Positions 5,424 through 64,000 of a stretch of 64,000 nt of DNA are shown one piece after another (the stretch's first letter is position 1; each line of letters opens with the position of its first letter). The notes below the pieces were generated by a model. The model was given only the letters and a program-made list of their open reading frames with translations, did no database searches and was not told the DNA's origin. Source of the stretch: an uncultured Clostridia bacterium (GTDB taxonomy: Bacteria; Bacillota; Clostridia; Christensenellales; Borkfalkiaceae). A program made the position numbers and the translations under genes. The stretch lies in assembly GCA_944328495.1 (NCBI GenBank), contig CALVHR010000003.1, positions 41,550 to 105,549 of the forward strand. The letters run 5' to 3'.

Positions 5424-5467
5424 AGACAAAACAGAAGAATTGCGGATATGTTCCGCAAAACAAAAAA

Positions 5468-5541
5468 CTCCGGAGAGGCCAAAAAACGGCGCCGAAGGTG
5501 TATGCCGCAAGGGCGGCTATCTCTCAGGCAAAAGGACGGAG
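5468..5541 (+). ncRNA. Glycine riboswitch, single aptamer
   Basis: The conserved glycine-aptamer core is readable: GGAGAG near the 5' side, GCCGAAGG in the middle, and CTCTCAGGCAAAAGGAC near the 3' side. P1 is CTCCG (5468-5472) paired with CGGAG (5537-5541). Only one aptamer is seen. A separate upstream hairpin (TTGCGGA / TCCGCAA, about 5439-5457) may be the accessory helix of a singleton type. It precedes an AGCS symporter gene, a known target class of glycine riboswitches. Confidence 0.88.
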
Positions 5542-5553
5542 CGGATCATCCGC

Positions 5554-12496: not shown

Positions 12497-12547
12497 AAAA
12501 GACAGAGCAGAGGCCCGGCAAAAATGCCGGAACTTTGTTATGCTTAA

Positions 12548-12711
12548 AATAGTTCTCCACTTGCGGTGACAGTCGGGCGGGTATTCTCCCGCGCGCCCGG
12601 CGACGGAAGTGCGGTCAGCTGTCCGTGCCTCGGCGGAGATGCCCTTTCCTTCCGTCGGAGAAAACCGCTCTCCGCGAGGCGAAAGTACTCATGCTCATCC
12701 GCTCCTCTATT
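12548..12711 (-). ncRNA. Lysine riboswitch (L box)
   Basis: Read on the minus strand, the L-box landmarks occur in order: AATAGAGGAGCGGATGAG near the 5' end, GAGTAC, then GGAAAGGGCATCTCCGCCGA, then ACTGTCACCGCAAGTGGAGA near the 3' end. P1 is AATAG (12711-12707) with CTATT (12552-12548). The call rests on this motif order and on asd-dapA-dapB downstream, a classical target. Lysine binding should favour the terminator at 12465-12496 and shut the operon off. Confidence 0.9.
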
Positions 12712-12722
12712 CAGCATACAGA

Positions 12723-62361: not shown

Positions 62362-63336
62362 ATGGAAAATCGTGAAGAGGGAGCGGCGAAACGTGTTGTG
62401 CGGATCATGCGCAAGAACGTAGTAAACATCAACGATCCGGATTTTGAAAAGATAGCGCTTTGTCTTTCTTTGAAGCTGCGGCGGGACATTCTGTGCCTGC
62501 TTTATAACAAGGCATTGACGACGGTTGAGATCGCTGAACATTTGAACGAGCCGGTTTCGACGATTGCGACCAATGTGAAGATGCTGGAACGTGCAGGGCT
62601 TGTTATGATGCTGGAAGCGCGCGGCCGCGGCAACGCCCGACCTATGACGGCCAAGTGCGCGTATGTGGTGATGGATCTGCGCAATACAGGCGATTCGCAG
62701 AATAATTTGCAAAAGAGGCACACCATCAATGTGACGATCGGTTCGTTTTGCGACTGTGCAACGTCTACGTATTACGGCATGGCAAGTCCGCAAACGGTGC
62801 TTGCCGGTGCCGGGACGGGAATGTGGGTAGCGAACCGCGGGGAAGCAGAAATTTTATGGATCGCAGGGAGCGGGTATGTGACATATAAAATTTCCAATTC
62901 CGTACTGAAAAAAAAGAAGCTCAACGATTTCAGTATATCGATGGAGATATGTTCGGAGACATCCACATACAACAATCAGTGGGAAAGCGATATTACATTT
63001 TGGATCAACGGTGTCGAGCTTTGTACATACCGTTCGCCCGGGGATTTCGGCGGACGCAGAGGAATGAACAATCCCGACTGGTGGCAGGATTTTATGACGC
63101 AGTACGGAATGTTGGTGACGGTGTCCGTCACGTCGGAAGGCGTAAGTCTGAACAACGTTCACGCTTCTGATTGTACGCTTGACCAGTTGAAATTGGATGA
63201 AGGAGATTTTTTCGAACTGAAGATCGGCGTGAAAGAAAACGCAAAAGCGAAAGGCGGGTTCAACCTGTTCGGGAAAGGGTTCGGTGATTATAAACAAGAC
63301 ATACGCATCAGCTACGATCGGCTGTATCGGTCATGA
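62362..63336 (+). CDS. ArsR-like HTH regulator with C-terminal beta-sandwich domain
   Basis: 324 residues from the ATG at 62362 (GGAGG five bases upstream). Residues about 25-100 are a winged helix of the ArsR type: FEKIALCLSLKLRRDILCLL, then TTVEIAEHLNEPVSTIATNVKMLERAGLV (in parts: AEHLNEPVSTIATNVKML). The remaining about 220 residues look like an all-beta, ligand-binding or jelly-roll domain with FSISMEICSETSTYNNQWES and an HASDCTLDQL segment near the end; no metal-binding ArsR cysteine pair is evident. This architecture matches what is known as a predicted regulator family of Firmicutes with sugar-linked contexts. It is probably autoregulated through the palindrome at 62261-62282. Its stop abuts the tandem array. 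Confidence 0.75.
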   Translation: MENREEGAAKRVVRIMRKNVVNINDPDFEKIALCLSLKLRRDILCLLYNKALTTVEIAEHLNEPVSTIATNVKMLERAGLVMMLEARGRGNARPMTAKCAYVVMDLRNTGDSQNNLQKRHTINVTIGSFCDCATSTYYGMASPQTVLAGAGTGMWVANRGEAEILWIAGSGYVTYKISNSVLKKKKLNDFSISMEICSETSTYNNQWESDITFWINGVELCTYRSPGDFGGRRGMNNPDWWQDFMTQYGMLVTVSVTSEGVSLNNVHASDCTLDQLKLDEGDFFELKIGVKENAKAKGGFNLFGKGFGDYKQDIRISYDRLYRS

Positions 63337-63392
63337 TGATACGGCACAAGCAACGGTCAAGGAGAAGACCATGTTGCTTGTGCTATTCGTCG

Positions 63393-63421
63393 CAAAAAAA
63401 TGGCTCCCAAACGGAAGCCAT
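63393..63421 (-). terminator. Terminator-like hairpin of array unit 1 (repeated in each unit)
   Basis: Minus strand: AATGGCTTCC...GGAGCCATTTTTTT, with seven T after the stem; other units have eight (for example 63862-63893). On the plus strand the tail is only TTTTAAGG or TTTAAAAA, so minus-strand transcripts would be stopped more efficiently. Confidence 0.6.
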
Positions 63422-63428
63422 TTTAAGG

Positions 63429-63958
63429 TTACTTTGTCATACCTTCTTGTACTGCGACGGCACAAGCAACGGTCAAGAAGAAGACCATGTTGCATGTGCT
63501 ATTCGTCGTAAAAAAAATGGCTTCCGAGAGGGAAGCCATTTAAAAATTACTTTGTCATTCCTTCTTGTACTGCGACGGCACAAGCAACGGTCAAGGAGAA
63601 GACCATGTTGCTTGTGCTATTCGTCGCAAAAAAATGGCTCCCAAACGGAAGCCATTTTAAGGTTACTTTGTCATACCTTCTTGTACTGCGACGGCACAAG
63701 CAACGGTCAAGAAGAAGACCATGTTGCATGTGCTATTCGTCGTAAAAAAAATGGCTTCCGAGAGGGAAGCCATTTAAAAATTACTTTGTCATTCCTTCTT
63801 GTACTGCGACGGCACAAGCAACGGTCAAGGAGAAGACCATGTTGCTTGTGCTATTCGTCGTAAAAAAAATGGCTTCCGAGAGGGAAGCCATTTTAAGGTT
63901 ACTTTGTCATACCTTCCTGTACAGCGACGGCACAAGCAACGGTCAAGGAGAAGACCAT
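63429..63958 (-). other. Repeated minus-strand 19-codon frames inside the array
   Basis: In copies 2-6 a minus-strand frame runs from ATG at 63488, 63606, 63722, 63840 and 63958 to TAA exactly 60 bases on. The product is MVFSLTVACAVAVQEGMTK or the same with Phe for Ser at position 4. No Shine-Dalgarno precedes the ATG, and the frame stays open upstream through codons for TNSTSN, so it may be the C-terminal end of a longer gene rather than a free peptide. The first unit has lost the end of the frame. The frames are followed on the same strand by terminator-like hairpins. Confidence 0.4.
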
Positions 63959-64000
63959 GTTGCTTGTGCTATTCGTCGTAAAAAAAATGGCTTCCGAGAG

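Follow-up and report, generated by a model that had tools for sequence, protein, structure and literature searches.

Integron attC cassette arrays consist of tandem short units in which the arms of a palindrome vary while pairing is kept and a small bulge lies on one strand; the attC boxes follow the consensus GTTRRRY and RYYYAAC. The array described here shares these features, but it lacks the boxes and any cassette genes, and its units end in the tail of a single gene. Displacement of a gene end has been described for prophage e14 in icd of Escherichia coli, which, according to the parts of the account cited here (PMC11148124), provides the gene with a new 3′ end, so that the old one comes to lie beyond the prophage. 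The displaced end, icdC, is a duplication of 165 bp with 12 nucleotide exchanges and two conservative amino-acid replacements (PMC11148124, same parts). A displaced old end of a conserved gene, with mostly silent differences, is what e14 and, on the reading proposed here, the present array have in common; however, e14 left one copy with a whole prophage between, whereas in the array as many as six units, each about 115 bp long, adjoin without cargo and with a hairpin. Template switching in replication, in the sections of PMC8794818 drawn on here, can make and maintain matched stems; such quasipalindrome hairpins offer a mechanism for making and repairing perfect stems, but do not by themselves produce a row of tail copies with coding-like differences.

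The window, a 64-kb stretch of DNA, ends in an array that we interpret, with a probability of about 0.5, as a stack of displaced GGGtGRT 3′ ends, left by repeated gene-end exchange and amplified by tandem duplication.

Layout and content of the array

The array occupies positions 63341-64000, the last 660 bases of the window (TRF; 5.6 copies with a score of 1138 at period 118, and a score of 1246 at period 234). Its six units, of 116, 118, 116, 118, 118 and at least 74 bp, are contiguous and follow one another at spacings of 116, 118, 116, 118 and 118. A preliminary description of this DNA had proposed a ~117-bp array of at least six spacer-free units, and this is confirmed. Position 64000 is the last base of the contig (C3 of G000, the genome of the window; 105549 bp), so that no further units can be read from this assembly; the exact number of units is that of one draft assembly. 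The features are as follows, with coordinates given for the window.

63341..63456, minus strand: unit 1, type A; last in gene direction
63457..63574, minus strand: unit 2, type B
63575..63690, minus strand: unit 3, type A; same sequence as unit 1 (116/116)
63691..63808, minus strand: unit 4, type B; same sequence as unit 2 (118/118)
63809..63926, minus strand: unit 5; 110/118 against each of units 1-4
63927..64000, minus strand: unit 6; truncated where the contig stops, its 74 bases all matching unit 5
63429..63473, minus strand: gene-tail copy, TVACAVAVQEGMTK*; others at 63547-63591, 63663-63707, 63781-63825 and 63899-63943
63343..63383, minus strand: hairpin H; others at 63459-63499, 63577-63617, 63693-63733, 63811-63851 and 63929-63969
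63394..63423, minus strand: terminator-like hairpin between the stop codon and H, from fold and sequence
63510-63541, 63628-63657, 63744-63775 and 63862-63893, minus strand: further terminator-like hairpins
62362..63336, plus strand: convergent ArsR-like HTH regulator; flank, outside the array

The identity of the A units with each other, and of the B units with each other, is as the preliminary description had it. The A-B-A-B alternation claimed there holds for units 1-4 and breaks down at units 5 and 6, with unit 5 standing at the same distance from both types; the units of the window thus fall into three sequence types. A stem-loop and a terminator hairpin had been assigned to every unit: the former was found in all six, and a terminator-like hairpin in the five full ones.

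On the minus strand, the array contains five copies of TVACAVAVQEGMTK followed by a stop codon. In relatives within the genus, these codons form the C-terminus of the conserved GGGtGRT protein (PF14057) and are continuous with full-length genes; the protein comprises about 334 residues, and the copy in G035 matches PF14057 with an E-value of 9e-198. It is nearly certain that the repeat is the end of the GGGtGRT gene, and a duplicated gene end, one of the options in the preliminary description, is what five of the units carry in the form of the last 15 codons, stop included. The minus-strand order of each unit is gene tail, stop, terminator-like hairpin and hairpin H, and the array therefore points towards the convergent HTH regulator. 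Hairpin H is composed of an arm, AT, GGTC, a loop, GACC and a matching arm, the last of which is the start of the next gene-tail copy. In unit 1, the gene-tail sequence stops short at 63341, where it adjoins the two stop codons of the regulator (TGATGA, 63334-63339). A role of the array as part of the regulator was rejected, as the nearest ortholog of the regulator (G022, 77%) has no array beside it. The regulator combines an ArsR-like HTH with a long C-terminal part without a Pfam match, and has five matches in the genome of the window.

The GGGtGRT gene and its usual NifU-like neighbour are both absent from the assembly of the window, and the gene would be expected on the minus strand, immediately beyond the last base of the contig. 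In G005, the gene contig ends 30 nt past the stop codon, within a unit of the same kind, and an array lies in the first 227 bases of another contig; we read these two contigs as one break, viewed from both sides. The preliminary description had named a short-read assembly artefact as one outcome that would overturn it. The position of the array at a contig end of a draft assembly, together with the missing gene, speaks for such an artefact, but arrays of the same kind lie inside contigs of other genomes (e.g., G003 and G013) and the window units are of three sequence types, which leaves this explanation very improbable. The GGGtGRT and NifU-like genes are jointly missing from the assemblies of G015, G022, G028 and G012 as well as from that of the window; in the portion of PMC10434189 cited here, the pair is among the iron-responsive genes of Bacteroides thetaiotaomicron.

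Two known classes of repeat were rejected. The units are contiguous, and the A and B units recur exactly, a layout other than the short repeats with unique spacers of a CRISPR array. A phage or plasmid repeat was dismissed after 360 bp of the array gave no blastn match in phages or plasmids.

Hairpin H and the pairing of its arms

In its minus-strand form, hairpin H reads GCACAAGCAAC-AT-GGTC-loop-GACC-GTTGCTTGTGC, with GCACATGCAAC as the left arm of type B. A total of 33 distinct H hairpins were collected from 18 genomes; in four of them the right arm is truncated or atypical (one in G061, two in G025 and one in G029), and in two, both from G005, the centre is changed. As the finder restricted the centre to four forms and fixed some of the inner-arm positions, the constancy of ATGGTC (31 of 33) follows in part from the search itself, whereas the covariation of the outer arms does not. 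Across species, the left arm tracks the right arm, that is, the gene sequence, and A-T pairs interchange with G-C or C-G pairs at five of the 12 arm positions. When one hairpin per genome was taken from the 18 genomes and the arms were shuffled between genomes, without correction for relatedness, the hairpins' own arms formed 10.67 of 12 Watson-Crick pairs, compared to a permuted mean of 8.53, and none of 5000 permutations scored as high.

Such compensatory changes would be expected of a functional RNA, in which the hairpin and terminator act at the 3′ end of the mRNA, through stability, termination or protein binding, and are kept by selection. Matching of the arms does not prove RNA function, however, because template switching can also produce such stems. 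In addition, 16 of the 36 judgeable genomes carry no copies within 0.1-3 kb downstream, the array has no Rfam match at threshold, and a functional RNA leaves the coding-like tail after the hairpin unexplained; we consider this reading improbable. A multi-copy small RNA locus, as suggested in the preliminary description, found no support and was rejected as improbable: in the Rfam search that had been proposed there, all matches of the array stayed below the gathering threshold, and in the stretch that follows the hairpin the copies show coding-like differences from one another. Just two elements elsewhere in the window reach that threshold, a lysine riboswitch (12542-12717, minus strand) and a glycine riboswitch (5460-5549, plus strand). 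The arms of H may stay matched either as a recombination signal or through correction by template switching in replication.

The arms mostly read GTTGCTT, GTCGCTT, GTTGCCG or GTCGCGG, and the attC boxes were absent from the arms of all 33 hairpins. It is unlikely, in our estimate, that the ~115-bp unit (tail, stop, terminator and covarying AT-bulge hairpin) constitutes a minimal mobile cassette that swaps C-terminal codons and stacks like integron cassettes without cargo. Such a unit, possibly in a folded, single-stranded form, would recombine into the end of one conserved gene.

A motif search for H gave 28 matches in 14 of the 40 genus genomes (reversed control, one), of which 27 lay at the GGGtGRT locus and one elsewhere in G025, and H was accordingly rejected as a genome-wide element. 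The presence of H is weakly clustered on the tree of the gene body (present in 14 of 32 rows, with 8 changes, a number equalled or undercut in 34 of 500 shuffles). At L064, L063 and other loci of the genus, the stop of the last tail is immediately followed by a dispersed repeat, noncoding and about 220 nt long, that contains hairpin modules. Among 10 genomes searched, it gave 57 matches in G013, 61 in G018 and 8 in G000 (e.g., C28:9800-9932), many of them partial, and six of its loci had no Rfam match above threshold. This post-stop element was set aside as a separate dispersed repeat and not part of the array; it is possibly a MITE-like family.

Tail copies in the genus and their codon pattern

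The genus sample comprised 40 genomes, including that of the window, and the GGGtGRT protein is present in 35 of these. A codon-blind search (threshold 26/36; top shuffled score 21) revealed tail copies downstream of the gene in 17 of the 33 genomes that have the gene and at least 36 nt of downstream sequence, with one to three copies each; this count includes a partial copy in G034 and takes the array contig of G005 as downstream. With three more carriers, namely G032, whose gene is divided between contigs, and G000 and G015, whose assemblies lack the gene, the search of related genomes proposed in the preliminary description found tail copies in 20 of the 40 genomes. These 20 are among 36 judgeable genomes, G011 (18 nt downstream) and G012, G022 and G028 (neither gene nor array) being excluded; the other 16 lacked copies in the downstream stretch, which measured 127 nt in G063 and about 1.5-3 kb in the others. 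All 58 matches of a tail pattern lie on gene or array contigs. Outside the genus, 97 of 121 genomes of the order have the GGGtGRT gene, and 40 loci were taken; a displaced tail was found at one of the 39 with a full gene, and this sole case, G073, had entered the sample because of its second tail match. The H motif occurred at none of the order loci examined, within 3 kb downstream.

Comparison of the copies with the tail of their own gene gave 10/10/50 mismatches at the first, second and third codon positions (25 copies, codon-blind search; 50 of 70 at third positions), of which the partial G034 copy contributes 5/3/2. For the first copy in each genome, the corresponding counts were 4/4/33 (17 genomes, without G034; 33 of 41 at third positions), and for copies within the same genome compared with each other they were 5/1/40 (23 pairs); in both of these comparisons, the copies came from a pattern lenient at third positions. 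The reading frame is kept and the differences are mainly synonymous, as in a displaced end of the icd/e14 kind. Dead duplicates would change at all codon positions, and the copies therefore resemble recently functional tails.

The tail of the gene itself also diverges in its own way. Its last 48 nt differ by 0.185, compared to 0.082 for the body (30 close genome pairs), and the correlation with body divergence was 0.02 for the tail and 0.42 for the stretch just before it (528 pairs). The tail types GAGNNPMVGMTVACAV and GMGNNPMVGASVAVAV require six changes on the body tree, on which a single clade was rejected (AU, p=0.001), and the well-supported branches by themselves force two changes; the two groups had first been noticed on an earlier tree, and were then tested on the body tree. 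These sequence comparisons support well the view that the gene tail has been exchanged, with a history apart from that of the gene body, while part of the tail-type pattern could stem from coupled substitution instead of exchange. In many genomes of the genus and order, the C-terminus of the protein shows coupled residues, GAG...GMT versus GMG...GAS/GAT, a pattern that may reflect structural compensation or block exchange.

The codon pattern bears directly on an explanation that dispenses with mobile DNA, in which ordinary tandem duplication, through slippage or unequal crossing-over, is combined with concerted exchange between the gene tail and its copies, and template switching gives rise to the hairpin and keeps it. 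The exact 234-bp A-B duplication in the window fits this account and is the one step, the latest, for which the slippage-prone repeat of the preliminary description stands. Neighbouring units are also near-identical in G031, G003 and G013, no integrase was found close to the locus in the genus, and template switching could have created and maintained the matched stems. However, the third-position bias, both between copies and against the gene, is not expected of dead copies, and G016 carries two types of terminator, with one unit that looks foreign. Its gene-proximal terminator is of another type than the displaced one, and the latter is 93% identical over 71 nt to the gene-proximal stretch of G029. 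We regard duplication without mobile DNA as tenable, though not favoured.

Displacement at the gene end in other lineages

In other lineages, outside the genus, the end of the GGGtGRT gene serves as an attachment site, as seen in IMG/VR contigs and in a remnant in G073. The tail pattern led to three stretches in IMG/VR, and the pre-tail sequence to 15 in 14 contigs; together these make 16 places, the 15 from the pre-tail scan and L231. A clear relative of tyrosine integrases lay within the DNA examined at seven of the 16. At L230 and L232, which share a contig, a tyrosine recombinase comes after a short gene end; a 398-residue integrase adjoins the short gene end of L231, and L239, L240, L242 and L245 have clear relatives of those enzymes beside the gene end. 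L237 has a weak relative, and at the other eight places neither integrase query matched in the DNA examined (318 bp for L234). Some of the places contain just a short displaced tail.

In G073, which belongs to the same order, the gene has a second tail 3069 bp downstream. The two tails are within direct repeats of 263 bp; seven synonymous differences, and no others, separate the tails, and the repeats have one further mismatch and one gap outside them. Between the tails lie genes for a holin-like protein (phrog_13712) and for a toxin resembling ToxN (PF13958; type III toxin-antitoxin). The segment L291:1110-4179, in which these two genes are flanked by the copies of the gene end, was recorded as a small remnant of a phage.

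The prophages and remnants thus involve the same gene and the same end as the array, and in G073 tails that differ only synonymously. They differ in that their copies begin further upstream, at GAAATGATGGG...GGCAACAACCC, whereas the copies in the genus begin with ACCGT, which follows the hairpin loop and lies on the 3′ side of the phage core, and in that several lie beside integrase or phage genes. PF00589 was found near the locus in none of the 40 genus genomes, several of which have short contigs here; its single occurrence on a gene or array contig is about 22 kb off, in G016. Hairpin H was not seen with the prophages and remnants at the gene end. A broad H motif matched at least 120 loci in viral contigs, with a tail beside none among the matches listed, and two left-arm patterns matched 43 places, with the matching right side in none.

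Repeated exchange of the gene end, the reading favoured here, would proceed as follows. Incoming DNA would recombine into the end of the GGGtGRT gene, supply a new working tail and push the old tail downstream, as e14 does in icd; with cargo absent or lost, units of about 115 bp would remain, and later tandem duplication, seen here for the 234-bp A-B block, would enlarge the stack. By analogy with the other lineages, integrating elements may have driven the exchange. Several observations count against a stack of displaced ends: no integrase lies close to the locus in the genus, the copies have another start point, the H-motif and left-arm matches listed from viral contigs have neither a tail nor a matching right side, a displaced tail was found at just one of the 39 order loci, and some hairpins lack a following tail (the last of G000, the second of G015, G029 and G061, and two in G025), which the model does not predict. 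Taken as a whole, the array is probably an instance of gene-end displacement, unusual in its density and degree of structure, and neither categorically new nor a small-RNA array. No paper linking GGGtGRT to integrase or prophage insertion was found in a literature search that left subscription journals mostly outside its reach.

As a recurrent prophage site, the GGGtGRT gene end would aid the finding of prophages. If the strong RNA-like covariation of the hairpin is owed to DNA exchange or template switching, it would call for caution in covariation-based RNA discovery. Were the units mobile cassettes, the arrays would preserve, in order, the exchanges of gene ends among the species of the genus. 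If the displaced-end reading is right, the last codons of a highly conserved gene of unknown function would be swapped repeatedly between species, and the stack of old tails would allow the exchange events to be counted and ordered.
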